Below are positions 1,648 through 40,749 of a stretch of 46,022 nt of DNA, in pieces. Position 1 is the first letter of the stretch. Each line of letters starts with the position of its first letter. A program made the position numbers and the translations under genes. This DNA comes from Spirochaetota bacterium (GTDB lineage: Bacteria > Spirochaetota > UBA4802 > JAFGDQ01): NCBI GenBank assembly GCA_034190085.1, contig JAXHTS010000045.1:1-46022 (forward strand). Direction: 5' to 3'. A model generated the notes under the pieces. The model saw nothing but the letters and a program-made list of their open reading frames with translations. It was not told the origin of the DNA and did not search any database.

Positions 1648-1814
1648 AAACAATTCCTCCATTATTATAATAAAATCTCAATATACACAAAGAAGGAATG
1701 GGGCGTAATGATATAAGTTATTGTTCAAGATTACTTTAATTACCTTATCTTGTTACCCTGCTTAGCAAAGCTCATCTAATGTTATTAGCATGCTTCATCT
1801 TTTAAACAGAAAAA

Positions 1815-1873
1815 CGTCATGATACACACCTCTTCACTTCTAATGAAAATGCTCTCTTGTATGCCTCATGACG
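1815..1873 (-). terminator. Stem-loop followed by T-run between the glycyl-radical enzyme and dctP
   Basis: CGTCATGA (1815-1822) and TCATGACG (1866-1873) are perfect inverted repeats, with a shorter nested ATACA/TGTAT pairing inside. Read on the minus strand the hairpin is followed at once by TTTTT. It lies after the stop of the enzyme gene and before dctP. It could end part of the transcription, or protect the 3' end of the enzyme mRNA so that enzyme and transporter are made in different amounts. Confidence 0.45.
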
Positions 1874-2009
1874 CTATTTGATATTACAATTTTATCATTA
1901 CTACAAAACTAATCCCCGATAGCCTCTAAATGTAAGTCATTCAACAGCCATTTAAAATTTTGCTTTTCCCTCACAGAAACAAGCAAGTGGGATATCAATT
2001 ACAATTGGT

Positions 2010-4499: not shown

Positions 4500-4714
4500 A
4501 ACAAACCTCCCCGAAATTATTTATATATTTCTTTCTCTATAGAACAAAATTCTACAAACTTGCTTCACATCCTCTATATTACTCAAAGATACTTCTATAT
4601 ATCTATGTTAGAAGCATAAAATATTCTCTAGCACATGAGAGGTATACTTAGTCGCCATGCCCTGCCATCATTATTATAATTGATATTACTAATAAAGTGA
4701 TAGAGCAAGGACGC

Positions 4715-5134
4715 CTAGGCAAGCCTTTCACCTGCAATCGGTATGGTTAATGCATAAACCTCTGTCACCTTAATCGTTGCCACATTTAGAACCTTGCAAT
4801 TAGCTCCCATCATCTCAAGGGCAGGGTTTATTTCAGAAGAAAATTTATCAAAAAGCGCTCCTGAATCCTGCATCTTCAAAAACGTACCCTTTACCTGATA
4901 CCCCTCTCTCATCGGTTTGAATATCGCAATCGCCACCCTTTTTCGTCCAGCCTCCAAATTTTTTGTGGTTTTACCATTAAAGCAACATGCGTAGGCTAAT
5001 GTATCATCATTAATAACCTTTAATGAATTGATTGGCACAAGATTCATACCGCCATCCTCATCCACAGTCGCAAGGGTGCAAAACTTAGCATCTCCTTCTA
5101 ATGTCTCCAATACTTCCTCAGGTAGTTTTGCCAT
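4715..5134 (-). CDS. Pyridoxamine-phosphate-oxidase-like flavin split-barrel protein
   Basis: A small protein of about 139 residues with the layout of FMN-binding split-barrel proteins: 'FCTLATVDEDGGMNLVPI', a strand-turn-strand core, 'GKTTKNLEAGRKRVAIAIF', and 'EGYQVKGTF'. Such proteins often bind FMN or F420/heme and act as small reductases or chaperone-like factors. An ATG at 5143 directly abuts AAGGAGG with no spacer; the ATG at 5134, nine bases further, has proper spacing and is preferred. It is a distant paralogue of the next gene upstream (5162-5563) and precedes the glycyl-radical enzyme. A role in flavin redox chemistry or oxygen protection for the radical enzyme is a guess from context. 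Confidence 0.65.
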   Translation of the reverse strand: MAKLPEEVLETLEGDAKFCTLATVDEDGGMNLVPINSLKVINDDTLAYACCFNGKTTKNLEAGRKRVAIAIFKPMREGYQVKGTFLKMQDSGALFDKFSSEINPALEMMGANCKVLNVATIKVTEVYALTIPIAGERLA

Positions 5135-5161
5135 TTTACTCATCCTCCTTTATGTTTAGAG

Positions 5162-5563
5162 CTAAGCAAGCTTTGTGCCTGCATTGCTTAAACTTGTACA
5201 ATATACTTCTTCCACCTTGCCTACAATTATCCCCTTGGGTTGAAGCTTAATCTTTTGGTATATCTGCTCACAGTATTGATCTGCAACCTTGCTCCTCTCC
5301 TGATAACTATTGAAACTGCACTTTATCTGATAGGACTCAAGGGTTAGCTTGAGAACGTTTACAGTAAATTTTTTAGTTTCAAGTATGTTACTCTTTGTCT
5401 TCCCTAGCCTTAAATCTGCAAAGCAGACAGTGCTCTTATCTAATGCTGAAGTTGTTGCTATCATTACTGCATTTGGCATACCCGATGAGTTGACACTAGC
5501 TACCATCTTTAACGTATAAAAATCTGTCAGAGCCTCATACACTTCATCTGGCATCTCTACCAT
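5162..5563 (-). CDS. Pyridoxamine-phosphate-oxidase-like flavin split-barrel protein
   Basis: A 133-residue protein resembling its downstream neighbour at 4715-5134: an N-terminal 'KMVASVNSSGMPNAVMIAT', then 'VCFADLRLGKTKSNIL', then 'ESYQIKCSF'. This is the pattern of small FMN-binding split-barrel proteins of the pyridoxamine 5'-phosphate oxidase superfamily, which commonly form homo- or heterodimers; the pair may assemble together. AAGGAGT sits 6 bases before the ATG. The genes are only 18 bases apart, as in an operon. No catalytic function can be assigned. Confidence 0.65.
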   Translation of the reverse strand: MVEMPDEVYEALTDFYTLKMVASVNSSGMPNAVMIATTSALDKSTVCFADLRLGKTKSNILETKKFTVNVLKLTLESYQIKCSFNSYQERSKVADQYCEQIYQKIKLQPKGIIVGKVEEVYCTSLSNAGTKLA

Positions 5564-21698: not shown

Positions 21699-21728
21699 TT
21701 GACAAAAAAATGCCATAGATAAATTATT
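21699..21728 (+). promoter_or_regulatory. Probable promoter of the B12-riboswitch transcript
   Basis: TTGACA at 21699-21704 is followed after 17-18 bases by AATTAT/ATTATT (21722-21728). A start near 21734 would place the first base just before the riboswitch P1 stem, which supports the assignment. Confidence 0.5.
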
Positions 21729-21735
21729 TATTGTC

Positions 21736-21916
21736 ATAAACAGGTGTATTATATTATTTCCTAAATAATTTTAATATTAAGAGGAAAGATGGTGAAAATC
21801 CATCGCAAGCCAGTCATTGCTGTAAGCGGGGACGAAAGTTGTCTTAAGCCACTGGGAAATCCTGGGAAGGCGCAATCATTAGAATGATCCGCAAGCCAGA
21901 AAGCCTGCCTGTTTAT
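21736..21916 (+). promoter_or_regulatory. Cobalamin (adenosylcobalamin) riboswitch
   Basis: All main elements of the B12 aptamer are present. The P1 stem pairs ATAAACAGG (21736-21744) with CCTGTTTAT (21908-21916). Then come the GATGG-tgaaaat-CCATC hairpin, the B12 box AAGCCACTGGG, the GGGAAGGC segment, and the 3' part GATCCGCAAGCCAGAAAGCC. It lies about 335 bases upstream of the TrpD-like gene on the same strand. B12 riboswitches normally shut genes off when cobalamin is plentiful, so the unit at 22251-24635 should be expressed when B12 is scarce. Confidence 0.95.
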
Positions 21917-21967
21917 ACTATCCATACATAATAAAAGCTGTATGGCCTAGGGATACCAAACTGGGAG

Positions 21968-22022
21968 TTATCCATTAATAATTAAGCTATGGGAATATAC
22001 TAGGTAGCTTGAAAATGGATAA
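21968..22022 (+). promoter_or_regulatory. Nested hairpin in the riboswitch leader
   Basis: TTATCCATT (21968-21976) pairs perfectly with AATGGATAA (22014-22022), enclosing a second perfect stem AAGCTA/TAGCTT. It lies between the aptamer and the first gene. No T-run follows, so it is not a plain terminator; it may be part of the switching region or an mRNA stabiliser. Confidence 0.5.
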
Positions 22023-22250
22023 ATCTATAACCGGATTGGTACATACTTCCATAAATCTTGACCTTATACTATCCATTTTCTATCTTAGCAAATCTACTCT
22101 AATATAATGAATTCTATACTATTGTAATGCCCATTGCTTAATGGCACAATTGCAATGCCGATGCATTGGTGAATAAGCGATTCAAAAATAATAGTGAATT
22201 GCTAACTTATGTAACGGTGGAATATAATCTCATATGGACTGGAGAGAATT

Positions 22251-23351
22251 ATGTTAACAGAAAATGATAAAGAATTTGGCAGTATCATAAATCGAATCAT
22301 TCTGGGTGAAGACCTCTCATATCAGGAAGCAAAGGGCACATTTAATCTAATCATCTCTAACCAGGTAACGGAAATGCAGCAGGGAGCATTTCTATCTGCA
22401 CTAACAGCAAAAGGGGAAACCCCTGAAGAGATCGCTGGATGCTGGGAAGCGATCTATGAACTTGATACTATCCATGTATCTATTGATGATAACACATCTA
22501 TTGTTGAAAACTGCGGTACAGGAATGGATTCATTTAAAACCTTTAATATCAGCACTGCCGCATCCATACTTGCTGCGGCAGGTGGTGTTAAAATGGCCAA
22601 GCATGGTGCAAGAGGCATTACTTCTGTATGCGGTACAGTTGATATTGCAGAAATTCTTGGTGTGGATGTGGAATGCAGCGCACACATCGTTGCCAGGAGT
22701 ATTGAGAAGGCAGGAATTGGCCTTTTTAATGGGATGAGCCCTGAGATACATCCAAATGCATTAGGTAGAATCCTCTCAAAAATTGCATTTGGATCAACTC
22801 TGAATATCGCCGCCTCATTAGCAAATCCAGCATCTCCTCGGTTAGCTGTAAGAGGGGTGTATTCAAAGGAAATGATACTGCCGGTTGCTCAAGTTATGAA
22901 TAAAATAGGATATAACCGGGCGTTGGTTATTTATGGAGAAATTGAAGGCTCTGACAAGGGAATGGACGAAGCATCGGTATGCGGAACAACTCAATGTGCT
23001 GAACTAAAAGAAGATGGGAGTATCCATGAATATTATTTTAGACCAACTGATTATAATCTGAAAATATATGATCCAAATATGCTTATACCATCCCAGAATA
23101 TTGAGTCTGAAGCTAAGACATTTATAAGGATTATATCCGGCAATCAAAATGGTGCTAGACGTGATGCAGCGGTTTTAAATGCTGGTTTAATCTATTATAT
23201 ATCAGATAAATCTGCAGATATATTCGAAGGAATTGATAAAGCGTCCGAGACTATCAATAATGGATCAGCCATTAAAACACTTGAAAGCTGGGTATCCTTA
23301 CAAAACAGAGATCCGGTAAAAGGAATTAAAAGACTAAATCAGTTAATCTAG
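22251..23351 (+). CDS. TrpD-family phosphoribosyltransferase under B12 control
   Basis: A 366-residue protein with the anthranilate phosphoribosyltransferase fold: an N-terminal helical domain, then the PRPP loop 'CGTGMDSFKTFNIS' (residues 88-101), and 'KHGARGITSVCGTVDIAEILG'. The TrpD hallmark KHGNR reads KHGAR here (A120), and the region where TrpD has RRELG-x-RT reads 'ILSKIAFGSTLN'. Both positions contact anthranilate in TrpD, so another acceptor is likely. No other trp gene is nearby, and the gene sits behind a cobalamin riboswitch. GGAG is placed 6 bases before the ATG. It may add phosphoribose to an aromatic base, for instance in cofactor lower-ligand supply; that is a hypothesis. True TrpD remains possible. 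Confidence 0.8.
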   Translation: MLTENDKEFGSIINRIILGEDLSYQEAKGTFNLIISNQVTEMQQGAFLSALTAKGETPEEIAGCWEAIYELDTIHVSIDDNTSIVENCGTGMDSFKTFNISTAASILAAAGGVKMAKHGARGITSVCGTVDIAEILGVDVECSAHIVARSIEKAGIGLFNGMSPEIHPNALGRILSKIAFGSTLNIAASLANPASPRLAVRGVYSKEMILPVAQVMNKIGYNRALVIYGEIEGSDKGMDEASVCGTTQCAELKEDGSIHEYYFRPTDYNLKIYDPNMLIPSQNIESEAKTFIRIISGNQNGARRDAAVLNAGLIYYISDKSADIFEGIDKASETINNGSAIKTLESWVSLQNRDPVKGIKRLNQLI

Positions 23352-23363
23352 TGGGGCATTTTT

Positions 23364-23570
23364 ATGGTACTTTTGGTAATAAAAAGTAAAGAGGATTATT
23401 TTTGCATAAAAGATGGTGAATATCATAAATGTCATATTGACAAGGCAAGCGTATATCCTCTTGATAAAATAGATACTGTAAGATCGCATATCGATAATTT
23501 AATAAAAATCGGAGAAGAAGACGCTTCTCTTTATAAACTTACAATTAGTGAAGAACCATGTAATATCTAG
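23364..23570 (+). CDS. Small protein of unknown function in the B12-regulated unit
   Basis: 68 residues, starting MVLLVIKSKEDYFCIKDGEY, with three cysteines (near residues 14, 24 and 66) and no membrane segment. I do not recognise the family. It begins 12 bases after the TrpD-like gene, behind GTGGGG, and precedes the zinc dehydrogenase-like gene by about 85 bases, so it is probably part of the same transcript. The start of the protein is beta-strand-like and the end helical, which would suit a small subunit or binding partner. Confidence 0.6.
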   Translation: MVLLVIKSKEDYFCIKDGEYHKCHIDKASVYPLDKIDTVRSHIDNLIKIGEEDASLYKLTISEEPCNI

Positions 23571-23654
23571 GGATTATTCTTAATCGCTTAATATTAAATA
23601 GAAATTTTTCTGATTGTAATATTCAGAAATTACTTTAAGCGTATTCTTATAATT

Positions 23655-24635
23655 TTGGCAAACAAAATGAGATTGATATTAAAGGACTTAAGGAATCTCA
23701 TACTCCAGGATGATGAGAAACAGACTAATTTGGCTGGTTACAAATGGCTGAAGGTTCAATACTGCGCAATTTGTAGAACTGACGCCAAGATGTGGGACCA
23801 AGGTCATAGAGATCTCGTATTACCAAGGGTATTAGGTCATGAAATGGTAGTTGCCGATTCACTCGGGGGAAAATACATAGTCTGGCCTGGTGACTGTTGC
23901 GGCACATGCCGTTATTGCAAAAGCAATCGTGAAAATCTATGCGATGAGATGAAGATCACAGGATTCCATCATGATGGTGGTTTTTCAGATTATGTTCATG
24001 TTAAAGAAGAGAGCCTGATCCCACTTCCGATAAGCATTCCCCTGCAAATTGGGACTTTTGCCGAACCTGTAGGATGTGTGTTTCATGCCTTAAACAAGGT
24101 AAATCTTAACAGGGATGAAAGAATTATCATTTATGGCGGCGGTACCTTGGGAATAATTACTGCATTGATTGCAAAGGAAATGATGGTCAGTCCTATTGTT
24201 ATTGAAAAAAATGAGGAAAAAATTGATAAAATAACACCTTTTCTCGAATTCATTGGTGTCCCCTGTGTAAAGAATATAGATGAGAGTGAATTTGATGTCG
24301 TTATAAATGCATGTCCTGATCCCATTGCTTTTGAATTAGGAATAGATAAACTTGCTAAAGGAGGTCGCTTTTCATTTTTCAGCGGACTCAATAAGAATCA
24401 GTTGATTGGAAGCGACCGGATAAATCTTACACATTATAAAGAAAATGTACTTTATGGCTCATATGGACTTACACGAAAAAACATGTACCAAGCAATTCAT
24501 TACTTAAATAAATTTTCCATACTATTTGAATATCTTATTGAGGAGATTATCACTCCTGAAAAAGTACAGAAGGCATTGGAAGATGTTCTCCGAGGAATCT
24601 CTTATAAATATATTCTTGATTTTACAGGACAATAG
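23655..24635 (+). CDS. Zinc-dependent alcohol dehydrogenase-family protein (MDR) in the B12-regulated unit
   Basis: A medium-chain dehydrogenase/reductase of up to 326 residues. The catalytic zinc ligands appear in 'CAICRTD' (C37) and 'GHE'; the structural zinc lobe is complete ('CGTCRYCKSNRENLC'). The nucleotide-binding glycines are in 'IIYGGGTLGIITALIA'. The frame can start at TTG 23655 or at ATG 23667; neither has a clear ribosome site. It is shorter than most family members (about 340-350), mainly at the N-terminus. The family oxidises alcohols or sugars with NAD(P); the substrate here is unknown. As last gene behind the riboswitch it probably acts with the TrpD-like enzyme. Confidence 0.8.
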   Translation: MANKMRLILKDLRNLILQDDEKQTNLAGYKWLKVQYCAICRTDAKMWDQGHRDLVLPRVLGHEMVVADSLGGKYIVWPGDCCGTCRYCKSNRENLCDEMKITGFHHDGGFSDYVHVKEESLIPLPISIPLQIGTFAEPVGCVFHALNKVNLNRDERIIIYGGGTLGIITALIAKEMMVSPIVIEKNEEKIDKITPFLEFIGVPCVKNIDESEFDVVINACPDPIAFELGIDKLAKGGRFSFFSGLNKNQLIGSDRINLTHYKENVLYGSYGLTRKNMYQAIHYLNKFSILFEYLIEEIITPEKVQKALEDVLRGISYKYILDFTGQ

Positions 24636-27850: not shown

Positions 27851-29023
27851 ATGAAGGATTATTTAATAATGGGAAGTGTTTTTGTTATTATAAGTGCTGT
27901 AATAATCACATTATCATATGTTAAATACAAATGGTTTATTATTACAAAATTATTATTTATTTTACTCCCTACAGTAATTATAGCTGTATTTCTTGGGTTT
28001 ATGTTGGTTGACATCGCTTCCATTACCTGGAGATTGGCCGTCTTATCAACCTTTGGAGTCCTGATTGCATTTTTAGCGATGAAGTCAATCAATAGAGTTG
28101 TTAATGATCCGATTTTAATAATGCAAAAAGCGGTGAGGTTTCTGGGGAATGGAGATTTGACTAAAAGGATAGATTTTCATTCTGATGATGAAATGGGAAG
28201 TTTATCAGCAAGTATGAATAATTTTGTTAGCAATATGCACAAAGTGATTTCGGAATTTATAAATTTTGCTAATCAGTTATCAAATTCCACTGAAGAGATT
28301 AATTCAACAGCTCAAAGCCTTAGCCAGAGCGCAAGCGAACAAGCTGCTAACATTGAAGAGATATCATCATCAATGGAAGAGATTGGAGCTACCATTTCAC
28401 AAAACACAGAGAATGCTAGGAGTACTGATCAGATAGCGCAAAAGACCTCTAAGCAAGCGGAAGAGGGAGGTAGGTCAGTAGAGGAGACAGTTGCTGCAAT
28501 GAGAAAAATTACAGAGAAGATCAGTATTATTGAAGACATAGCCTCTCAGACCAACCTATTGGCGCTGAATGCAGCTATTGAGGCGGCAAGGGCAGGAGAG
28601 CATGGTAAGGGTTTTGCGGTAGTTGCTGGGGAAGTAAGAAAACTTGCTGAAAAGAGTCAAACAGCAGCTAAGGAGATCAGCAGTTTAGCAAGTGCAAGTG
28701 TTGATGTTGCTGAGCAAGCAGGAAATCTACTGAAAGAGATTGTTCCAAGCATTAAAAAGACTGCTGATCTTGTACAGGATATTACTTCTGCATCTGAACA
28801 GCAGGATACAGGAGTAAATCAGATAAACAACGGGATGGATCAGTTAAATCAGGTATCGCAACAGAATGCAGCATTTTCTGAAGAACTATCTGCAACATCT
28901 AATGTTTTACGGGAACATTCAATTTTTCTGCAGAAGGTTGTAGCATCCTTCAATGTTGAAAAACAAATTTTAGATGAAACCAATGAGAAAGAAGCGATTC
29001 CTGAGATTGCATATACTGCTTAA
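27851..29023 (+). CDS. Methyl-accepting chemotaxis protein without external sensor domain
   Basis: A 390-residue receptor. Three hydrophobic segments (about 4-23, 31-52 and 59-79) are joined by short loops, so there is no periplasmic ligand domain. A HAMP region (about 80-135) and a long signalling coiled coil follow. The signalling tip is canonical ('[20 protein letters not shown]'), so it should couple to CheA and CheW. AAGGAG precedes the ATG by 8 bases. With no outer domain it may sense the membrane state, or depend on partner proteins. First of three receptor genes ahead of cheW. Confidence 0.9.
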
Positions 29024-29120
29024 TCTTTATGTATAACATTACGTTAGATTATTAAGTATATTTCATTCCTATGAATATAAAACAACCACTCAATAAACTA
29101 TAATACAGGTATATGTTTTT

Positions 29121-30794
29121 ATGAAGCTGTCATTGAAGAATATGACACTAATGAACAAACTACTAATCCCGGTAATATCAATAATACTATCTTTTATTGT
29201 GTTTTATATCTGCTATTTGCTCCCCTTAGTAAAAGAAAAAGTTATAGATGAGAAGAAGGCAAGGATAAAGGGAGTAGTGGAGTTGGGTATTTGTACATTA
29301 GAAAAATATAACGAAAGACAGGGGAGGGGGCTTGTTACCCCTATAGCAGCAAAAATAATTGCTAAAGAGTTACTTAAGAGCGCTAGGTTTGGTAGAGATG
29401 GAAACGATTTTCTCTGGATCAATGATTATCATCCTAAAATGATAATGCATCCCTATAATAATAAATTATATAAGAAGGATTTATCTAATATAGCTGATAC
29501 TGATGGTAAGAGTGTCTATATTGAAATAGTAAAAATATGTAAAAAAAATGGAAGTGGCTTTGTTGAATATAAGGGACAATGGCTTAATGAGAGGCATAAA
29601 ACTGTGCCAATAGTGTCTTTTGTTAAGGCATATGACCCATGGGGCTGGATTGTTGGATCGAGTTTTAATTTAGACAATGCTCAACAGGAAATAAATGCCC
29701 TATATTACAAAGGAACAATAATTCTATTAGTTGGGATGTCATTATTTTTATTAATAATCATATATACAAGCAGGTTGATTGTTAAGTCTATTCAGTCTAG
29801 TCAGAAATATGCACAAAATATTGCTAAGGGAGATCTGTCAGTTGATATAAATATAAACAGCAAGGATGAAATTGGTCAATTAGCATCTTCTATGAGAGAT
29901 ATGATTGTTAAGTTCTCAAAGGTGATAAGAGGGATTGTTGAGACAGTTAAAGCTCTGACAGATTCCACAAATAGTATAAGTACTACAACAAAGGATTTGA
30001 GTCATTGTGCTGGTGATCAAACAACCAGCATTGAAGAGATAAGGGTATTCATGAAGGAGATAGGAACTATAATTTCACAGAATGCAGAAAATGTAAAAAA
30101 TACTGATAATATAACCCAAATGACAGCCTTGCAGGCAATGGATGGGGGCAAAGCGATAGGGGATACCCTTGATACCATGAGGATGATAACAAAGAAGATA
30201 GATATAATTGAAGATATCGCAAGCCAAACAAACCTACTAGCGTTAAATGCAGCAATTGAGGCTGCAAGAGCGAGTGAACATGGAAGAGGTTTCTCCATTG
30301 TCGCATCGGAGGTTAGAAAGCTTGCAGAGAAGAGCAAACTAGCGGCTAAAGATATCAGCACGCTTGCAATAGAGGGTGTGTCAGTAGCGGAAAGAGCAGG
30401 GAAGCTTTTTGGTGAGATTGGTCCAAACATCCAAGAGACAGCGAAGCTTGTTCAGGTTATTTCTGATGCTTCAAAACATCAGAATATAAATGTTCAGCAA
30501 ATTAATTACAGCATTGAACGCTTAAGACAGCTTACACATCAGAATATAGCATACTTTGAGAAAGTTGCATCCTCTACACATGACATATCCACACATGCAG
30601 CGAGGTTGTTTAAAATCATAGGTTACTTTAGAATAGGAAGAAATTTATCTTCTCCAATGGGAAACAAAACCTCGAAAGTGTTATTGAGTAGAGATATGCC
30701 TGTTACTGATTCAGATTATAAATTATTAGAGAGTAATGTGACATTGCAATCAAATATCATTTCGCATTCAAATAAAAAGATACCTAAAAGATAG
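29121..30794 (+). CDS. Methyl-accepting chemotaxis protein with Cache-type sensor
   Basis: A 557-residue receptor with two membrane segments (about 13-35 and 195-217). Between them lies a single Cache-like domain: '[17 protein letters not shown]' and '[18 protein letters not shown]' are typical of sCache_2, which often binds small carboxylates. A HAMP and a signalling coiled coil follow. The tip is intact ('[20 protein letters not shown]'), but flanking parts diverge from the other two receptors here ('[17 protein letters not shown]', '[15 protein letters not shown]'). No good ribosome site before the ATG. The tail after the coil (about 60 residues) is polar and unique. Confidence 0.88.
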
Positions 30795-31154
30795 TAATCA
30801 ATTTAGAGGGATGGATTGTGTCTCTGATCAAATGCTATAATTAAAGGGGCATAATACGATTAATTTGTTAAGTAAATATTTTTAATATAATGAATTAATT
30901 TTTCTCTTTTTTTTTCAAAAAAATTCGGTTATAATTTAATTTATCACTTGGATGTCAAATTTGTCGAAAAAATCGTATTTATTAATTGATATGTAACAAT
31001 GTATGCCATCTCTCTTAATCTTTGGAGGGAGGGAAATGCCACTAATAATATACATGAATCCCCATAAAGATGGATGGAAGATGAGGAATTATGTATAAAA
31101 GTTAATATGATAGTCTATATATCTATTAATACAATTTAAGGAGGCGAAGGAGAT
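30795..31154. other. AT-rich region between chemoreceptor genes
   Basis: About 360 bases with long T and A runs, probably holding the promoter of the third receptor. The only coding candidate is the 20-codon frame at 31036-31098. Confidence 0.4.
31036..31098 (+). CDS. Possible 20-residue leader peptide
   Basis: ATG behind GGAGGGAGGG opens a frame for MPLIIYMNPHKDGWKMRNYV ending in TAA, 56 bases ahead of the third chemoreceptor gene. The strong ribosome site is the only support. It may be a leader peptide or chance. Confidence 0.25.
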   Translation: MPLIIYMNPHKDGWKMRNYV

Positions 31155-32852
31155 ATGAGAATCTTAAAGGATGGCATTTGGGGAAGGATAAAATTATTAT
31201 TTACTGGCACCATAGGAAGCAAAATTTATACTATTGTTGGAGTGATGTCTTTAATGGCGTTAGTAATGGTGCTTTCTGCAATATGGTTTGCCAACACCCT
31301 CAGTTTGGCAACTGACATTGTGAGGATGGAAAGGGGACATACTGTAGCTTTAATTGGCGCGAAAAATAGCATGTATAAATATTTACAGACTAAAAGCAGA
31401 AATTATATACCTGAATTCTGGGAATATTTTAATATCGCCAATACTTATGAGATGATATTTTCAACACTTCCTGATGTAGTCTCAAATAACTCAGCTGATG
31501 ATGCTGCAAATATAATTGATAGTACTTTTGCAGAGATCAGTAATGAAACGGCACATATTATGGTCAGTAGACTCAAGCTACTCTCCGGTAATGAGATTGT
31601 GAAAAAGCTGATCTCAACAATTGCAGAAGCTAGGCAGGCCTCTGAAAGGTATGAGGAGTTGGCAGGAAATATCTTCAGAGAGAAGAATACTATAAAGAGA
31701 ATGAAGATAATCAATGAAATAGGTAAGGTTGAAAAGGAATTAGCCGATATTCCAATAAAGTTTTCTGAAGCAATTGCTGAGTTTTCAAAATATTCCACTA
31801 CTCTTGTAAAACAGGCTTTATGGATTATCTGTATTGTATTAATAGCAGTCTGTTTATCAATTTCTATATTTATTGTACGATCAATAACGAGTTCCTTGCG
31901 CACGGTTACAGCAAGCTTAAAAGATATTGCTGAGGGTGAAGGCGATCTAACTGTGCAATTAGAGGTAAAAACTAGCGATGAGATTGGAGAACTGTCATCG
32001 AATTTTAACAAGTTTATCACAAAAATTAGAAATATAATTACAAAAGCTAAAATGAGTTCGCATACTTTTGCCAGTGCCTCAGAACAAATTAAGGCAACTT
32101 CTCAGAGCTTGAGCCAGAGTTCGAATGAGCAGGCGGCAAATGTGGAGGAGATCACCTCATCCATGGAAGAGATTGGAGCAACAGTTTCACAGAATGCTGA
32201 TAATGCCAAGAATACTGATGTTTTGGCTCAAGATACCTCCAAGCAGGCCGAAAACGGGGGAGAGGCTGTTCGCGATGCTGTGAAAGCCATGAAAGATATT
32301 GCTGAGAAGATAAACCTTATTGAGGATATTGCATATCAGACTAATCTTTTAGCGCTTAACGCTGCCATTGAAGCAGCGAGGGCCGGGGAACATGGAAAGG
32401 GTTTTGCCGTTGTTGCAGTGGAAGTGAGGAAACTCGCTGAGAAGAGCCAACTGGCGGCTCAAGAGATAGGTGGGCTGGCATCAAATAGTGTTATTCGTGC
32501 AGAGAAAGCCGGGGGGCTAATCGATGAGATTGTGCCAAATGTAAAGAAGACTGCAGATCTTGTTCAGGATATTTTTAGTGCATCAGAACAACAGGATTCT
32601 GCAATAGGGCAGATAAGCAGCGGCATGGAACAGTTGAATGAAGTAACACAGCAGAATGCGGCATCCTCTGAAGAACTCTCATCAACAGCAGAGCTTCTAA
32701 GTGATCAGGCCTCTGCAATGCAGGAACTGATGGGTTTCTTTAAGACCGAGACAGGGTCAGATGCATCTTCATCTGCAGGAAATATTGCAATGCAATCAGA
32801 TACGATTGAGGAAGAACCTTATTCTAACCTCAATACTGCATTATTGGAATAG
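31155..32852 (+). CDS. Methyl-accepting chemotaxis protein with helical sensor domain
   Basis: A 565-residue receptor. Membrane segments at about 25-45 and 222-242 enclose a helical periplasmic domain of about 175 residues, similar in outline to four-helix-bundle sensors but not recognised by motif. A HAMP ('[26 protein letters not shown]') and a full signalling coil follow, with the tip '[21 protein letters not shown]'. AAGGAGG and GGAG precede the ATG. It ends with a polar tail. About 70 bases later cheW begins, so the receptor and the coupling protein may be cotranscribed. Confidence 0.9.
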
Positions 32853-32925
32853 CATATTGATATGAATTGAGAATCGTCTAATAATATAGTCATTGTTAAG
32901 CGTAATAATTATTGATGGAGGGGCT

Positions 32926-33486
32926 ATGGAGAAGGAGCGATCTGAAGAAGCAACGCAATGCGAAAATGATATTGAACAGTATCTAACCTTTCATCTTGGA
33001 GATGAATTATATGGTTTTAAGGTTAACAATATTAGAGAGGTTATAGAATATAATCAAATTAGCAGTGTAACCCAAATACCCTTAGTCCCGGAATATATTA
33101 AAGGAGTGATAAACCTGAGAGGAGAGGTCGTGCCTGTAATTGACCTTTCAATGAGATTTTATAATCATATGAATGAAATAACAAGGCGTACATGCATTGT
33201 TATGATTGAAGTTGAGGATGAGGGTGAAATAATTCTTGTAGGAGCAATGATCGATGCTGTCAATGCTGTTGTTGATATTCTTCCAGATGATATAGAGAGC
33301 ACAATGGGATTTGGAGCTAAAATACGATCAGATTTCATCAGCGGTATTGGAAAGATAGATGATGATAAATTTGTAATCTTGCTGAATCTCAATAGGGTAC
33401 TGAATATCGATGATATCTCCAATTTTGGAGAATCTGATACAGACCTGAACACATTGATGTTATTAGGCAGCGCTAGTTATTCCTGA
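32926..33486 (+). CDS. cheW: Chemotaxis coupling protein CheW
   Basis: Links chemoreceptors to the kinase CheA. The 186-residue protein shows the CheW fold: 'TFHLGDELYGFKVNNIREVI', 'QIPLVPEYIKGVINLRGEVVPVIDL' and the second barrel with 'GAMIDAVNAVVDI'. A longer frame opens at a TTG (32893), but the ATG at 32926 has GGAGG 4 bases upstream and fits the family N-terminus. Followed by a 260-base gap before cheY. Confidence 0.93.
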   Translation: MEKERSEEATQCENDIEQYLTFHLGDELYGFKVNNIREVIEYNQISSVTQIPLVPEYIKGVINLRGEVVPVIDLSMRFYNHMNEITRRTCIVMIEVEDEGEIILVGAMIDAVNAVVDILPDDIESTMGFGAKIRSDFISGIGKIDDDKFVILLNLNRVLNIDDISNFGESDTDLNTLMLLGSASYS

Positions 33487-33745
33487 TGTCTTAGTTCTTC
33501 AGCAATATAATAGTAAACAAATTGGATGAGATGGAGTTTTGGTAGGATGAAATAATATGAAATTATTTAAATAACAATATATGAATTGTTCACCTTTCGT
33601 ATTCAAAGACTATTTCTATTATCGATCAAAATTAGAACCGATATCTTGTAAATTGTAAATAATTGGAGTTTAAAAATATAAAGAATGGAGAGATTTATTA
33701 TATCGCTTCATAAATAACGATTATATTTTCAATAGGAGTATCGTT

Positions 33746-34120
33746 ATGGGAAAGACAATTTTAGTAGTTGACGATGCACAATCTGTTCGTCAGGCTGTTG
33801 GATTTACGCTACAGGAGGAGGGATATGATATTGTTGAGGCTGAAGATGGGGTGGACGCATTGAATAAGTTAGATGGCCAGCATGTAGATATGATAGTATG
33901 TGATGTTAATATGCCGAATATGGATGGGATTACCTTTATTCAAAAGTTAACTAGCGATGAAGCCTATGCGTCTTATAAATTTACTCCATTGATAATGTTA
34001 ACAACTGAATCTGGTGAAGATAAAAAGGCAGAGGGGAAGAAGGCTGGGGCAAAGGCCTGGTTGGTTAAGCCATTTAAGCATGAACAACTTATCAGCGCAG
34101 TAAAAAAATTAATGTTATAA
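33746..34120 (+). CDS. cheY: Chemotaxis response regulator CheY
   Basis: A single receiver domain of 124 residues. Acidic pair D9/D10, phosphoryl-accepting D53 ('IVCDVNMPNMDG'), switch T86/T87 and K108 ('VKPFK') are all present. No output domain, so it should act on the flagellar motor switch or on partner proteins. AGGAG precedes the ATG by 7 bases. First gene of the group cheY-STAS-cheA-cheB. Confidence 0.92.
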   Translation: MGKTILVVDDAQSVRQAVGFTLQEEGYDIVEAEDGVDALNKLDGQHVDMIVCDVNMPNMDGITFIQKLTSDEAYASYKFTPLIMLTTESGEDKKAEGKKAGAKAWLVKPFKHEQLISAVKKLML

Positions 34121-34173
34121 GGTTGGATACACGAATAGACCTTTCATTTATAGCAAGGAGGGGAGCGAGGGAG

Positions 34174-34461
34174 ATGGATATACATATTAAGAGTGATGAT
34201 TCCAAGAAGACTTCAATGGCTATAGAAGGAGAGATGACGATATACTCAGCAGGTGAAATAAAAAATGCACTAATCGAGTATCTTACTGATTGTAATGAGA
34301 TAAATATTGATCTTTCAATGGTTAGTAAAATTGATACATCTGGATTTCAACTTTTGCTTCTTGCTAAAATAGAATCTCAGCGAAGAGATATCCCATTTAA
34401 GATTTTGGATACAAGTCAGGAAGTTGAAAATATATTTAATCTGTTTGGTGAATCCTACTAA
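34174..34461 (+). CDS. STAS-domain protein (anti-sigma factor antagonist-like)
   Basis: A 95-residue single STAS domain. 'VSKIDTSGFQLLLLAK' carries the serine that is phosphorylated in SpoIIAA-type proteins. A TTG at 34123 would add 17 residues, but the ATG at 34174 follows a purine-rich AAGGAGGGGAGCGAGGGAG and fits the domain start. Set between cheY and cheA, it may regulate array activity or connect chemotaxis to a phosphoswitch; no kinase or phosphatase partner is in the window. Confidence 0.85.
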   Translation: MDIHIKSDDSKKTSMAIEGEMTIYSAGEIKNALIEYLTDCNEINIDLSMVSKIDTSGFQLLLLAKIESQRRDIPFKILDTSQEVENIFNLFGESY

Positions 34462-34477
34462 TTTTTGAGAGGAATGT

Positions 34478-36709
34478 ATGGGATCAAAGAAAAAATATGA
34501 CATGCAGGATGCAATCAATGCTTTTTTTCTGGATTGCCGGGAAATGCTTGATGAGATGGAAAGTTCTCTTTTGCAGCTTGAAAAGGATATCAGTGATGAA
34601 GAATCCATTAATTCATTATTTCGGGCAATTCACACAATAAAGGGCGCATCTGGGATGTTTGGTTTTGTTGAGATAGAGAAGTTTACACATATAGTAGAAA
34701 ATATGTTAGATGATGTTCGAAAGGGTTTAATACAGGTTGATAGTGATCTTATTGCTCTTCTTCTGAAATGTCATGATTATGTTGATAAGTTAGTGGTTCT
34801 TTTTGAGGACTCAAAGGACAACGTGCTTGATAAAGAGATGACTGAAACTGGTGAATCTTTATATCAAAAATTGAATACATATCTATCTACCTCATCGAAA
34901 TTATCTGATAGCAACACATCTAAAAGGCCGGAATTATCAACTGACACCCTTCAATCAGATGGGAAACAGGTTTTAAATGAATGCTGGCATATATCAATAA
35001 GGTTTGGTGAAGATGTCTTTAGAAACAGATTGGATCCAATGCCCTTTATAAAATACCTTGGAGAGATAGGCGAGATCGTTAACATTATAACCGTATGTGA
35101 TAGAATTCCAACTTTGGAAGAGATTGATCCTGAGAGTTGTTATCTGGGATTTGAGATCGATTTCAAGGGCAATGTGGATAAAGAAATATTAGAGGATGCT
35201 TTTGAATTTCTGATTGATGATTGTACCTTGAGAATTCTTTCTCCAAAGAGTTCAATATCTGAGTATGTTGAGCTTATTCAGAATTTGCCTGAGACCCCCC
35301 AGCGTATCGGAGAGATTCTAACGAAGATCGGCACATTGACTGAATTGGAGCTTGAAGAGGCGATTCGATTGCAGGAGGCCTTAAACAAGGTTTCGGATGA
35401 AGATCAAAAAAAACCACTAGGCGAGATTGTTGTAGAAGAAAAGATGGTACAGGAATCTGTAGTAAATGCTGCCCTTGAGAAACAGACACAGGTAAAGAAG
35501 AATATACGTTCTATACGTGTAGATCCTGAAAAGCTTGATCACTTAATCAATTATGTTGGCGAACTCGTTATTACAGGCGCAAGCGTTAAACAGCTATCAG
35601 AAAAGCTGGGAGATACAGAATTATTAGAATCGGTTTTACAGATGTCCAAATTGATCGAGGATATTAGAGATAGCACGATGAATGTGCGGATGGTTCAAAT
35701 CGGAGATACATTTAGAAAATTTGAACGCGTTGTGAGAGATTTGAGTCATGAGAGGGGGAAGGAAATTAAACTTATAATAAATGGTGGTGAGACAGAACTA
35801 GACAAAACCCTGATTGAGAAGATCAATGACCCACTAATGCATCTGGTGCGAAATGCAGTGGATCATGGAATCGGCACACCGGAGGATAGAGTAAAAAAGG
35901 GTAAGCAACCTCAGGGGACCATATTATTAAACGCATATCATGGAACAGGAAGCATTATAATTGAGGTTAGTGATGATGGTGGCGGACTTAATCGAGAAAA
36001 GATACTGAATAAATCTATTGAAAAAGGTCTGATACAACCTGGCCAGGATATATCTGACAATGAATTATATCAACTAATTTTTGAGCCTGGATTTTCTACT
36101 GCTGAAAAGGTTACCAACATATCAGGACGTGGCGTAGGTATGGATGTTGTAAAGAAGAATATACAATCCTTAAGGGGCAATATCACTATTGATAGCAAAG
36201 AAGGGATTGGCACTACAATGAGAATTCATCTACCACTAACCTTAGCCATTATTGATGGTTTTATGGTTAAGGTAGGCAGTGTCTTTTATGTATTGCCATT
36301 GGACATGGTGATAGAGTGTTCAGAAATAACAGCCGAGGATATCAGCGGAAGCGATGCGTATAACTTTCTGAATTTAAGGGGAGAAATTCTTCCCTTTTTA
36401 AGGCTTCGGGATTTTTTTAATGTTACTGAAGGGAAAAAAGAGCGTGAGAATATTGTTGTCGTCGAATATAATCAGAGAAGGATTGGCCTGGTAGTGGATA
36501 AGCTGATCGGAGAATTTCAAACGGTTATCAAACCATTGGGTAAAATCTTTAGAAAACTTCAATGGGCTATAGGTGCAACAATACTGGGCACTGGAGAGGT
36601 CGCTTTAATACTTGATGTGCCAATTCTTATTCAACACTTACAATCAATCGAAAGCAAAGGTGAAATATCTAAAGAAGTTATGAGAGAAGTTGCTGGAGCA
36701 ACATTTTAA
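34478..36709 (+). CDS. cheA: Chemotaxis histidine kinase CheA
   Basis: 743 residues. P1: phosphotransfer H52 in 'RAIHTIKGASGMFGF'. Residues about 170-265 form a middle domain, perhaps in place of P2 ('WHISIRFGEDVFRN'). Residues about 270-340 hold two repeats of the form 'iGEIL ... lteleleeAi ...Q', also seen in the DnaJ-like protein at 40921. Then dimerisation helices, the ATPase core (N-box 'HLVRNAVDHGI', 'SDDGGGLN', 'GRGVGMDVV') and a CheW-like C-terminus ('PLDMVIECSEI'). All key residues are intact. A GAGAGG ribosome site precedes the ATG. It phosphorylates CheY and CheB. Confidence 0.95.
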   Translation: MGSKKKYDMQDAINAFFLDCREMLDEMESSLLQLEKDISDEESINSLFRAIHTIKGASGMFGFVEIEKFTHIVENMLDDVRKGLIQVDSDLIALLLKCHDYVDKLVVLFEDSKDNVLDKEMTETGESLYQKLNTYLSTSSKLSDSNTSKRPELSTDTLQSDGKQVLNECWHISIRFGEDVFRNRLDPMPFIKYLGEIGEIVNIITVCDRIPTLEEIDPESCYLGFEIDFKGNVDKEILEDAFEFLIDDCTLRILSPKSSISEYVELIQNLPETPQRIGEILTKIGTLTELELEEAIRLQEALNKVSDEDQKKPLGEIVVEEKMVQESVVNAALEKQTQVKKNIRSIRVDPEKLDHLINYVGELVITGASVKQLSEKLGDTELLESVLQMSKLIEDIRDSTMNVRMVQIGDTFRKFERVVRDLSHERGKEIKLIINGGETELDKTLIEKINDPLMHLVRNAVDHGIGTPEDRVKKGKQPQGTILLNAYHGTGSIIIEVSDDGGGLNREKILNKSIEKGLIQPGQDISDNELYQLIFEPGFSTAEKVTNISGRGVGMDVVKKNIQSLRGNITIDSKEGIGTTMRIHLPLTLAIIDGFMVKVGSVFYVLPLDMVIECSEITAEDISGSDAYNFLNLRGEILPFLRLRDFFNVTEGKKERENIVVVEYNQRRIGLVVDKLIGEFQTVIKPLGKIFRKLQWAIGATILGTGEVALILDVPILIQHLQSIESKGEISKEVMREVAGATF

Positions 36710-36718
36710 TATTCAAAA

Positions 36719-37795
36719 ATGGAAAAAAAAATAAAAGTAATGATTGTGGATGATTCCGCCTCGGTTCGCAAGGTTATTGGCGAAATTATCGACTCAACCC
36801 CAGATATGGAGTTGATGGCTGCTGCGCATGATCCCATTATTGCGATGCACCATCTCAAGAATCAATGGCCTGATGTGATGATTTTAGATATAGAAATGCC
36901 TCGCAAGGATGGCATAACATTCTTAAAGGAGATAATGAGGGATAGACCTACTCCTGTAATCATATGTTCAACACTTGCTGAAAAGGATGCAGAGATCACA
37001 ATGGAGGCCCTCTCATCAGGCGCTGTTGAAGTTATTACAAAACCAAAGGTTGGAATAAAGGACTTTCTCAATGAGTCTATTGTTACAATCACGGATGCTG
37101 TACGATCAGCCTACAATGCAAAGGTAAGTAGACTAACGCTAAAGTCCAGTCAGAAATTATCGGCTCCTCCTAAACTTACTGCTGATGTTATACTGTCTCC
37201 ACGAGCTGAGAAAAGTGTTGTAACCAGCAAGGAAAAATTTGTAGCGATAGGGGCATCAGCAGGTGGCACTAACGCGATAGAGAACGTGTTAAAAGCATTA
37301 CCTAGTAGTTCACCGGGCATAGTTATCGTTCAGCATATGCCAGAGAAGTTTACCAATGCCTTTGCTCAACGTTTAGATAGGCTCTGTGACATTGAAGTGA
37401 AAGAGGCAAAGGATGGCGATGAGGTTCGAAATGGCTGTGCAATAATCGCACCCGGTAATCGCCATATGCTTATTTCTATAAAGGGTAAAAATTTATATGT
37501 TCAAATCAAAGACGGACCACGTGTATCCCGTCATCGACCTTCTGTTGATGTCCTTTTTCGATCTGTGTCTAAGGTAGCTGGGAAAAATGCTCTTGGCATT
37601 ATTATGACCGGCATGGGTGATGATGGAGCAGCTGGTATGATGGAGATGCATAATGCTGGAATAAAAACCATAGCCCAGGATGAAGAGACATGCGTTGTCT
37701 TTGGTATGCCTCATGAGGCAATTAAACTTGGCGGTGTGGATGAAATATTGCCATTGAATAAAATGGCGGATGCTATAATTAGTTATTGTAACTAA
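36719..37795 (+). CDS. cheB: Chemoreceptor glutamate methylesterase CheB
   Basis: 358 residues. An N-terminal receiver with D57 ('LDIEMPRKDG') is joined by a linker to the methylesterase domain with the catalytic triad S180 ('GASAGG'), H206 ('QHMPE') and D302 ('GMGDDG'). It demethylates or deamidates receptors when phosphorylated by CheA. The start is 9 bases after the cheA stop, without a clear ribosome site, suggesting coupling. No cheR is in the window, so the methyltransferase must be encoded elsewhere. Confidence 0.95.
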   Translation: MEKKIKVMIVDDSASVRKVIGEIIDSTPDMELMAAAHDPIIAMHHLKNQWPDVMILDIEMPRKDGITFLKEIMRDRPTPVIICSTLAEKDAEITMEALSSGAVEVITKPKVGIKDFLNESIVTITDAVRSAYNAKVSRLTLKSSQKLSAPPKLTADVILSPRAEKSVVTSKEKFVAIGASAGGTNAIENVLKALPSSSPGIVIVQHMPEKFTNAFAQRLDRLCDIEVKEAKDGDEVRNGCAIIAPGNRHMLISIKGKNLYVQIKDGPRVSRHRPSVDVLFRSVSKVAGKNALGIIMTGMGDDGAAGMMEMHNAGIKTIAQDEETCVVFGMPHEAIKLGGVDEILPLNKMADAIISYCN

Positions 37796-37815
37796 AAAGA
37801 AACAGAGGTGAGTAT

Positions 37816-38997
37816 ATGAATCATCAAATATTCGAAAATTTAAGAGAGAAGGCTGATGAATTCGGTTCTATAGCTAAAAAGGTAAATGAATCTTCAAAGA
37901 CAAGAAAAGCATGCTCTGAGAAAGCTATGGAATATATCGATAAATCCCTAAAGATTGGTGAGGTCTTAAAGAAAGACCTTGAAACAGTTGCAAATACGAA
38001 TATTATAATGAGAGACCAAGATAACGTTGTATTGAATACATGCGTAATTCTCAAGTCAAACATCAATGAGCAAATTGATATGATTAATGATCTGAAGAAG
38101 AGTGTTTCCATTAATGCTGATATTATTGAAGACTGCATATCAAAAATTAACTATCTGTCTGAAGCGATAGATGATGCCTTATCAAATATCCAGAAAATAA
38201 TTAAAATGGATAATGAAATAATCCTTATAGATGATAAGATCTTAATGTGCAAACAATTACAGCAGGATTCTCTAAAAACATTAAAGGAGATAACAAAAAT
38301 TAGCCTTCAGGATGCAAAGAAGGCTATCAAGGGTTCATCCTCTAATTTGGAACGCGGTCTGCAAATGGTGGAGAAATTTCAAAATGTTCAGCAATTGATT
38401 GAGGATAATAATCTCTCTGAATTGAATAATCTCATCAAAGAGGCAAGAAAGGGATGGAATATCGCTGTTGATGTAAATAAGAGTTCATCATCACAATATG
38501 AGTTTGCAGAAAAGGTAAATAACTTTACTAAGCAACTGCACAGAGATTCAATCTCATTAAGGGATATGGTTGTAGAGAAACATAGAATTTTTGAAGAGAA
38601 TCTTCAATACATTACTGTTCTTACCGTAATACTATCGCTTAAGTTTAAGAAATATCTTCAGATTGAAGAGTCGCTTGATAAGATGGAATATAACGGCGAT
38701 ATTCATGAATTAATTAATCGAATTATGATCAATGTAAAAATAGCCTGTAAAGACATAAAGAATGTGAGTTCCCTAAACTATGATATGGCTGACAGCAGCC
38801 ATCTCAATAATGAGATTGAGGATAAAGCGGTAAAATCTACAGAAAAGGAAATTGAATATTACGACAGCACAGCAAAGGAAGTTGGGGTTATGACTGAAGC
38901 AACCAAATATCCAATAGAGGGTTCAGGCAAGAATATTAAAAATGGACAAATTCTAGAAGATTATCTAAAAAATCTTCTAGATCAGGAGAAGCATTGA
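37816..38997 (+). CDS. Coiled-coil chemotaxis-linked protein with duplicated GS motif
   Basis: 393 residues, almost all helical, highly charged, without membrane or signal segments. It is directly behind cheB (20 bases; AGAGGTG ribosome site) and so probably part of the che operon. Two copies of a motif 'A/P-I-x-G-S-x-x-N-I/L-x-x-G' occur, at about residues 172-184 ('AIKGSSSNLERG') and 366-378 ('PIEGSGKNIKNG'). The second half before the motif resembles a degenerate chemoreceptor hairpin tip ('VILSLKFKKYLQIEES'). I do not recognise the family. A soluble receptor-like or array-scaffold protein is an inference. Confidence 0.7.
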   Translation: MNHQIFENLREKADEFGSIAKKVNESSKTRKACSEKAMEYIDKSLKIGEVLKKDLETVANTNIIMRDQDNVVLNTCVILKSNINEQIDMINDLKKSVSINADIIEDCISKINYLSEAIDDALSNIQKIIKMDNEIILIDDKILMCKQLQQDSLKTLKEITKISLQDAKKAIKGSSSNLERGLQMVEKFQNVQQLIEDNNLSELNNLIKEARKGWNIAVDVNKSSSSQYEFAEKVNNFTKQLHRDSISLRDMVVEKHRIFEENLQYITVLTVILSLKFKKYLQIEESLDKMEYNGDIHELINRIMINVKIACKDIKNVSSLNYDMADSSHLNNEIEDKAVKSTEKEIEYYDSTAKEVGVMTEATKYPIEGSGKNIKNGQILEDYLKNLLDQEKH

Positions 38998-39039
38998 TTA
39001 AGCATATATTTTAATAAATAAAGGAAGATTGGATTGCTT

Positions 39040-40749
39040 ATGAGTGATGTCCAAAAAATAATAGAAGGCATATCAACCATTGTTAATGAGATAACGGAGA
39101 CAGCAAGATATGTGAATAGTGATTCGCATAAGAGAAAGAGTATTACCTCAAATAGTCTATCATTAATTGAAAAATTGATTGAAGAGAGCGGGACCCTGAA
39201 AACAAAATTTGGGGAAATACTCCAATATCTAAAATCCTCATATAATGGCATTGATAGCAATTCAGGGGAATTTAAATCAAATGTTGAACATTTTTCAGAT
39301 ATTCTTTTAAATCTCGATAATATTAAGAAGACATTGAATACCCTTGAAAGTGAGATAGATAATCTGAATAATATAATCGAAGAGATTAAGAACGATACAG
39401 AAGAGATTTTTTTATTAGCGATAAATGCATCAGTTGAATCTAGCAAATATTCGCATAATGCAAAGGTATTCGATGTCCTTGCCAACAAATTAAATGAGAT
39501 GTCGAATTTTATTAATCAAAACCTAATTAGCATAGTAGATGTTGTGGACCCGATTATCGATGGCATTGGAAAATTGATCAATGAAAATTCAATTATTCTA
39601 AATGATATTACTGAGGGCCATAAAAACTTCATAGAATTTACGGACATACTTGATAAACAGAAAAATGCGGTTAATGAGTTGATGTTAAAGGTAAATACAT
39701 CAGCGGAAAAAATAAATGACCAGAAAATGATGCTTGAAGATATAAACGAAAAAGTAGGTCAGATGGATACAGATGCAATTGGAGCGATCACGGGTTCTGG
39801 AAATGTTATAAAAGCCGGAGAGGATCTTCAATTAAAAACACAGGAGGTAATCTCAGCATATAACGCTAGCAAGGACTATATGGAAATAATTGATCATATT
39901 CATTCTCAATCCTCTTCAATATGGCAAACAGCTGAGGGTGTGAATACTAAATCAAAGAGTCAATTAGAATTTTCTTTAAGCTGTGTCGCTTTTTGTGACT
40001 CAATAATATCTGAATCAGCTGAGTTACAAAAAACCACTACGATTGTGAAAGAACAGTCAGTCAACAATAACAATACGTCAAATTATATGTCACAGGCTTT
40101 AGGTAAGCTTATTTCTCAGCTTAATGAAATTGAGAAAAAAATTGTATACTCAAACAACGCCATACAGAAATTTATTGAGGATTATGAACAAATTAACAGT
40201 ATAGTTAACTTTCTTAAAAGCATATTAAAGTCTATGAAGGTTATTGGGATGTATTCTCGAATTGAATCTTCTCGTGATCCGAATGAATTTGAGGGATTCA
40301 TGACAATTTATGAAAATATAAATCGATTACAGAACCATATACAAAAGAATGTTCCTAAAATTGAAGAGAATATAAATTCAACTCAAGTAATAATTGAAAA
40401 AATAAATCTCTTTCTCCAAAGTATCTCTTCTGTCTTTTATGCAATATCAAATAATTCAAATAGCATCATTGTAAATCTTAAAGAGATTACAAATTTAAGT
40501 GCTGAAACGGAGAGTGTTGGTCAATCCATAGTTGAAAAATCGATTGAGATAGACACATTATTAAATGAATTGAGGGGTTTTTTACTTGAATTGACTGAGG
40601 TTGTGAAAAAACCCATTGAAGGATCTGCGGCAAATATTACAAGAGGCAAAACAATAGAGAGTAAATGTATTGAGGTTAAGGAATTGATAACTCAAGATGA
40701 GATAGCTGATGATGTAGTTTATGAAAATCAGCTTCAAGCTTCCTGTTAG
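39040..40749 (+). CDS. Coiled-coil chemotaxis-linked protein with receptor-tip-like segments
   Basis: About 569 residues, helical, soluble, related to the upstream neighbour. The GS motif occurs at about residues 247-260 ('AITGSGNVIKAG') and near 524-537 ('PIEGSAANITRG'). Before each copy there is a segment recalling the chemoreceptor tip: 'IFLLAINASVESSKYSHNAKVF' (compare [20 protein letters not shown]), and 'IGMYSRIESSRDPNEFEGF'. The tip arginine region is altered, so normal CheA/CheW binding is doubtful. TTG at 39034 has AAGGA at 8 bases and is an alternative start to the ATG at 39040. It is the last gene of the che group. Confidence 0.7.
   Translation: MSDVQKIIEGISTIVNEITETARYVNSDSHKRKSITSNSLSLIEKLIEESGTLKTKFGEILQYLKSSYNGIDSNSGEFKSNVEHFSDILLNLDNIKKTLNTLESEIDNLNNIIEEIKNDTEEIFLLAINASVESSKYSHNAKVFDVLANKLNEMSNFINQNLISIVDVVDPIIDGIGKLINENSIILNDITEGHKNFIEFTDILDKQKNAVNELMLKVNTSAEKINDQKMMLEDINEKVGQMDTDAIGAITGSGNVIKAGEDLQLKTQEVISAYNASKDYMEIIDHIHSQSSSIWQTAEGVNTKSKSQLEFSLSCVAFCDSIISESAELQKTTTIVKEQSVNNNNTSNYMSQALGKLISQLNEIEKKIVYSNNAIQKFIEDYEQINSIVNFLKSILKSMKVIGMYSRIESSRDPNEFEGFMTIYENINRLQNHIQKNVPKIEENINSTQVIIEKINLFLQSISSVFYAISNNSNSIIVNLKEITNLSAETESVGQSIVEKSIEIDTLLNELRGFLLELTEVVKKPIEGSAANITRGKTIESKCIEVKELITQDEIADDVVYENQLQASC

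Follow-up and report, generated by a model that had tools for sequence, protein, structure and literature searches.

We analysed a 46,022-nucleotide stretch of DNA from a Spirochaetota bacterium (the window; contig JAXHTS010000045.1 of assembly GCA_034190085.1), in which a cobalamin riboswitch stands ahead of three genes encoding a TrpD-like phosphoribosyltransferase, a small conserved protein and a zinc-dependent dehydrogenase (Table 1). Judged by its position in the genomes compared, this unit very likely serves to supply or attach the lower-ligand base of cobamides.

The riboswitch and its three genes

An earlier reading made from the letters alone (the sequence-only reading) had placed a cobalamin aptamer at 21736-21916. 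The Rfam covariance-model search confirmed it, with a match that is complete (model positions 1-189) and is the only Rfam match in the window. The element is predicted to sense cobamides and control expression of the unit. The promoter that the same reading called well placed is present as a sequence, but such sites are no commoner in the region than in shuffled sequence (20 versus 18.7, standard deviation 3.7), which leaves it plausible but unproven as the promoter of the unit. Folding of the leader is more stable than that of shuffled sequence (z -2.6), and the leader contains TATCCAT repeats for a single ATGGATA partner at 22014-22021. Since the repeats would compete for this one partner, control at the level of translation is possible but unproven. 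Neither the stretch from the riboswitch to the TrpD-like gene nor the gaps among the three genes yielded a plus-strand intrinsic terminator.

Table 1. Features of the riboswitch unit in window coordinates.
Feature	Position	Strand	Basis and remarks
Putative sigma-70 promoter, TTGACA-17-AATTAT	21699-21727	+	Upstream of aptamer; 10 of 12 consensus positions match
Cobalamin riboswitch, RF00174	21725-21926	+	Rfam cmscan, 98.6 bits, E 1.5e-23 (gathering score 31.5)
Leader, putative expression platform	21927-22250	+	Between aptamer and TrpD-like gene
TrpD-like phosphoribosyltransferase, 366 residues	22251-23351	+	Pfam Glycos_transf_3 / 3N
Conserved 68-residue protein	23364-23570	+	Translation; [KQ]ASV[FY] motif in alignment of 16 unit homologues
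Zinc-dependent medium-chain dehydrogenase/reductase (MDR)	23667-24635	+	Open reading frame opens at TTG 23655; Pfam ADH_N, 53 bits

Searching 84,980 genomes with two spirochaete proteins as queries gave 35 loci whose identity is 49-67%, including a short fragment at 53%. They belong to Desulfobacterota, Firmicutes, Synergistota, Spirochaetota, one Sabulitectum metagenome-assembled genome (MAG) and one Salinivirgaceae (Bacteroidota) MAG. The survey of gene order behind B12 riboswitches that the sequence-only reading had suggested finds the three genes conserved together across at least five phyla, and clustering of the surrounding open reading frames left the dehydrogenase and the small protein as the only recurrent neighbours of the TrpD-like gene. 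Of 33 loci searched for a cobalamin riboswitch, 26 have one ahead of the unit, among them all seven in Firmicutes, the three distinct spirochaete loci and most of those in Desulfobacterota; this recurrence excludes a chance association. Among 297 genomes drawn from the phylum that includes Desulfospira, about 3% have the TrpD-like gene, and the unit occurs in culturable isolates, namely Desulfospira, Desulfogranum, Fuchsiella and Halanaerobium.

The small protein had been taken for an orphan but has homologues in the same unit at 16 loci at least. It is modelled by AlphaFold with a pLDDT of 97 and has no relative in Pfam, NCBIfam or the PDB. For the dehydrogenase we took ATG 23667 as the start because relatives begin at the equivalent residue. 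Over 36 unit homologues it conserves the catalytic Cys-His-Glu (C39, H61, E136) and the four cysteines of a structural zinc lobe (C81, C84, C87, C95), the features of zinc MDR enzymes, some of these positions being kept in at least 90% of the homologues rather than invariant. Asp42 and Lys44, C-terminal to the catalytic Cys, are invariant, and Lys44 stands at what we take to be the position of the proton-relay His51 of liver alcohol dehydrogenase. Its closest matches in the PDB, all of low similarity, are zinc, threonine and sugar-alcohol dehydrogenases.

The TrpD-like enzyme and true TrpD

The AlphaFold model of the TrpD-like protein (pLDDT 92) has the fold of anthranilate phosphoribosyltransferase (AnPRT), and AnPRTs are its best PDB matches (TM 0.82-0.85). 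Alignment upheld both departures from TrpD that had been read from the sequence, KHGAR in place of KHGNR and the loss of the RRELG-x-RT segment. The ligands of Mg and phosphoribosyl pyrophosphate (PRPP) are kept in the members aligned, as NxST, an Asp-Glu pair and the Lys/Arg of xHGxR; N99, S101, T102, D239 and E240 are invariant over 33 unit members and match residues listed as PRPP-Mg ligands in a review of AnPRT (PMC9835598). Asn138 and Arg193 of the Mycobacterium tuberculosis enzyme have roles in binding anthranilate; Arg193 holds the carboxylate, and substitutions there impair catalysis (PMC9835598). In the 33 aligned members the first is replaced by Ala or Ser and the second by an invariant Leu. 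These replacements, with the PRPP ligands intact, support the earlier proposal that anthranilate is probably not the substrate.

Phylogeny against TrpD and TrpD2/YbiB points the same way. The 39 TrpD-like proteins of the unit form a single clade (SH-aLRT 100), separated by a stem of 1.11 changes per site and placed apart from every TrpD included. The tree was a quick one without bootstrap, and its YbiB and DeoA outgroup sequences sit on very long branches. Neither of the outcomes that the sequence-only reading had named as refuting it is thus seen: the protein does not fall inside true TrpD, and the genes behind the riboswitch do keep together in other genomes. True TrpD is rejected on the tree, the substituted residues and a separate fused TrpGD in the window genome. 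At one locus (L188) the unit directly follows a complete trp operon that includes a normal TrpD. NCBIfam model TIGR01245 (trpD) nevertheless matches the window protein at 258.2 bits, over a cut-off of 199.05, and matches all 33 aligned members, so that a spurious second trpD will appear in genome annotations. From tree, residues and context, the name is very probably wrong for the whole clade, apparently a systematic misannotation.

A base pocket like that of thymidine phosphorylase was considered from motif spacing (R173 and S189 against R171 and S186 of the E. coli enzyme), but the alignment does not superpose these residues cleanly and we do not claim it. A deep-branching relative (L186:6333-7448, genome G116) keeps GPLLNP and has RHCAR. 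It adjoins a 737-residue protein that looks by eye like a molybdopterin oxidoreductase, on a short contig with no cobamide gene, and is possibly a third TrpD-like activity.

CobT and the cobamide genes around the unit

CobT is the enzyme that activates the base of the cobamide lower ligand, and it is to CobT that the unit is tied, an association as directly observed as that with the riboswitch. In a genome of the same family as the window genome (G002), the dehydrogenase is the N-terminal part of a 704-residue protein; CobT makes up the C-terminal half (419 bits, cut-off 319). Such dehydrogenase-CobT fusions occur at 18 loci, and frames of fusion length are found in three further genomes (G063, G089, G090). 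Four loci of more distant members (L188, L189, L191, L192) have the orders dehydrogenase-TrpDlike-CobT, dehydrogenase-TrpDlike-CobT-CobS and dehydrogenase-TrpDlike-CobT-CobS-CobD-CbiB. In Fuchsiella the riboswitch is followed by the dehydrogenase, the TrpD-like gene, two BzaA/B-like genes and CobT, and the unit of the Salinivirgaceae MAG is embedded in a full cbi/cob operon spanning CbiA to CbiB. The GEGTG motif is kept in all CobT domains compared. Fusion to CobT, adjacency to it and embedding in cobamide operons thus give direct and strong support to the lower-ligand hypothesis of the sequence-only reading. At one locus (L058:10266-13374) the fusion is followed directly by a second CobT; such tandem CobTs could pass for ArsAB in genome surveys.

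The window genome has six cobalamin riboswitches, five of them outside the window (contigs C83, C19, C68 and C47 of G000). One precedes CbiR-CobT and two have TonB receptors nearby; the remaining two form a tandem pair in the neighbourhood of a CbiK-like cobaltochelatase, a CobN-like protein and a TonB receptor. Among the six, the unit in the window alone lacks a previously known B12 gene. The single CobT, beside CbiR, is accompanied in the genome by CobS, CobD and CbiB. CbiR, a remodelling enzyme, initiates the removal of a foreign lower ligand (PMC7733943), so the bacterium probably swaps lower ligands. A known benzimidazole route was not found in this genome (96% complete): no BluB exceeds the cut-off (TIGR02476), the one ThiC-like protein falls outside the BzaF clade, and there is neither BzaF nor BzaA plus BzaB.

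Among unit genomes generally, BluB passes the cut-off in none of 40, while a BzaF-clade protein is present in 10 of 34 and BzaA/B in 2 of 34; many of these genomes are MAGs, in which single absences carry little weight. Halanaerobium has the unit and lacks any ThiC-like protein. Several of the ten genomes with BzaF place it next to a CobT of its own, separate from the dehydrogenase-CobT fusion. Each base route may therefore keep a dedicated CobT, in analogy to the BluB/CobT2 fusion, the precedent for a base-forming enzyme joined to CobT (PMC4657239). Salvage of alpha-ribazole was rejected as a common thread, a clear CblS-like protein being found in only 4 of 29 unit genomes.

Elsewhere in the window, the minus strand at 604-5563 encodes a glycyl-radical (pyruvate formate-lyase-like) enzyme with its glycine-radical domain, a DctP solute-binding protein of the TRAP type and two small related open reading frames, one of them PNPOx-like (Pfam); this cluster probably serves anaerobic uptake and degradation of a substrate. 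A long chemotaxis cluster at 27851-40749 has several methyl-accepting proteins and CheW-, CheY-, CheA- and CheB-like frames, recognized by eye in the translations.

A proposed role and its alternatives

That the unit is a cobamide lower-ligand module and a partner of CobT, serving the supply or attachment of the base, we hold with high confidence. We propose that the riboswitch would permit expression when cellular cobamide is low. The TrpD-like enzyme would then use PRPP to phosphoribosylate an N-nucleophile, one different from anthranilate, and the NAD-dependent zinc dehydrogenase would oxidise the phosphoribosyl adduct; these two steps are read from fold and motifs. The oxidised product would be, or become, the base for CobT, which as the C-terminal domain of the dehydrogenase in many species, or as a separate gene in the window genome, would make the alpha-ribotide of the nucleotide loop. 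The small protein would be an accessory subunit. Because CobT is the fused partner, supply of the base is favoured over its activation as the role of the TrpD-like enzyme. The order of phosphoribosylation, oxidation and delivery to CobT has a somewhat less than even chance of being right, and the explanation taken as a whole about an even one.

BluB takes C2 of 5,6-dimethylbenzimidazole from C1' of the ribityl chain. A bolder version of the proposal borrows this carbon logic, a ribose-derived carbon entering the base ring, for the unit: as a type III phosphoribosyltransferase the TrpD-like enzyme would join PRPP to a diamine or N-heterocycle, and the zinc dehydrogenase would oxidise carbons derived from ribose, bringing ribose C1' into the ring. 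Such a third base route, hypothetical and independent of both oxygen and bza, seems to us unlikely.

Several observations weigh against a base-supply module. The substrate and product of its enzymes are candidates only, and no further enzyme that could provide an unusual precursor recurs next to the unit. With bza genes in about a third of unit genomes (12 of 34), the module is not just a substitute for them, and strict replacement of bza is rejected. Finally, and most awkwardly, at the scale of MAG data, CobT is undetectable in three Synergistaceae genomes that have the unit, where a base alone would be useless. These three may be incomplete genomes, may salvage alpha-ribazole (one carries a CblS-like kinase), or may activate the base without CobT.

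In this last case the TrpD-like enzyme would join a finished base to PRPP, and the dehydrogenase would invert C1' of the resulting beta-ribotide by transiently oxidising the adjacent hydroxyl, so that the alpha-ribotide would form with no need of nicotinate mononucleotide (NaMN). The presence of CobS in two of the three CobT-less genomes is consistent with such a route, as is the membership of the dehydrogenase in the zinc MDR group, with sugar-alcohol dehydrogenases among its best matches. In most unit genomes, however, the route would be redundant, the dehydrogenase being fused to or lying beside a CobT that keeps GEGTG, and CobT is missing from 50 of 53 Synergistaceae regardless. Unit and CobT never coincide in that family, where CobT is too rare (3 of 53) for strict replacement to be decided. 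We regard CobT-independent activation, the leading alternative, as improbable.

CobT uses NaMN and releases nicotinate. The tight link of the unit to an enzyme that consumes NaMN would also fit a TrpD-like enzyme that forms or regenerates NaMN, or else some other phosphoribosyl donor, but NadC, which makes NaMN, is over the cut-off in 29 of 39 unit genomes, that of the window included. Donor supply would moreover leave the dehydrogenase without a role, and the AnPRT residue that binds the substrate carboxylate is lost; we give it little credence. The same small chance attaches to a unit that tailors or handles 5-hydroxybenzimidazole from BzaF or BzaA/B, as the Fuchsiella operon and the 12 unit genomes with bza might suggest, given that the other 22, the window genome and Halanaerobium among them, have no bza and that BzaF adjoins its own CobT in several of the genomes that do. 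Although B12 riboswitches can control B12-independent isozymes and TIGR01245 scores above its cut-off, the other suggestion of the sequence-only reading, a bypass of a B12-dependent reaction, finds no support and is, like a duplicated tryptophan enzyme, very improbable, since the clade lies outside TrpD, true TrpD occurs separately, and the unit is surrounded by cobamide-pathway genes rather than bypass genes, a context that contradicts this reading.

The base-supply module would matter beyond the window. In one survey, 42% of predicted cobamide producers had no assignable gene for benzimidazole synthesis or phenolic attachment (PMC6461909). Because the lower ligand decides which microbes can use a cobamide, a genetic marker of another way to supply it would alter how B12 sharing is predicted in anaerobic communities. 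In the literature searched on cobamides or cobalamin riboswitches with TrpD or AnPRT, which excluded most subscription papers, the module is not described, and the two papers on riboswitches and TrpD mention trpD in other settings only; the module is likely, though not certainly, novel.

Among known systems, AnPRT TrpD shares with the unit enzyme its fold, domain architecture and Mg-PRPP ligands (NxST and DE), at 30-37% identity. The unit enzyme differs in having GTGMD for GTGGD, [KR]HG[AS]R for KHGNR, Leu at the position of Arg193, a two-residue insertion (FNGMS) and a deletion (HP..), as well as in its place outside the TrpD clade and its cobamide context. TrpD2/YbiB belongs to the same superfamily but lacks the PRPP motif (our alignment; PMC9835598), whereas the unit enzyme keeps it as GTGxD and NxST and so stands apart from that group. 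The BzaABCDEF pathway resembles the unit in placing base genes beside, or in one transcript with, CobT in anaerobes in a cobamide context; in place of a ThiC-like radical-SAM enzyme the unit has a PRPP transferase and a zinc dehydrogenase. The BluB-CobT2 fusion of Propionibacterium likewise joins a base-forming enzyme to CobT, with a flavin-destroying BluB that the unit lacks. In ArsAB, CobT homologues serve a special base, but these are tandem homologues, whereas the window genome has one CobT and the CobT of the unit retains GEGTG.

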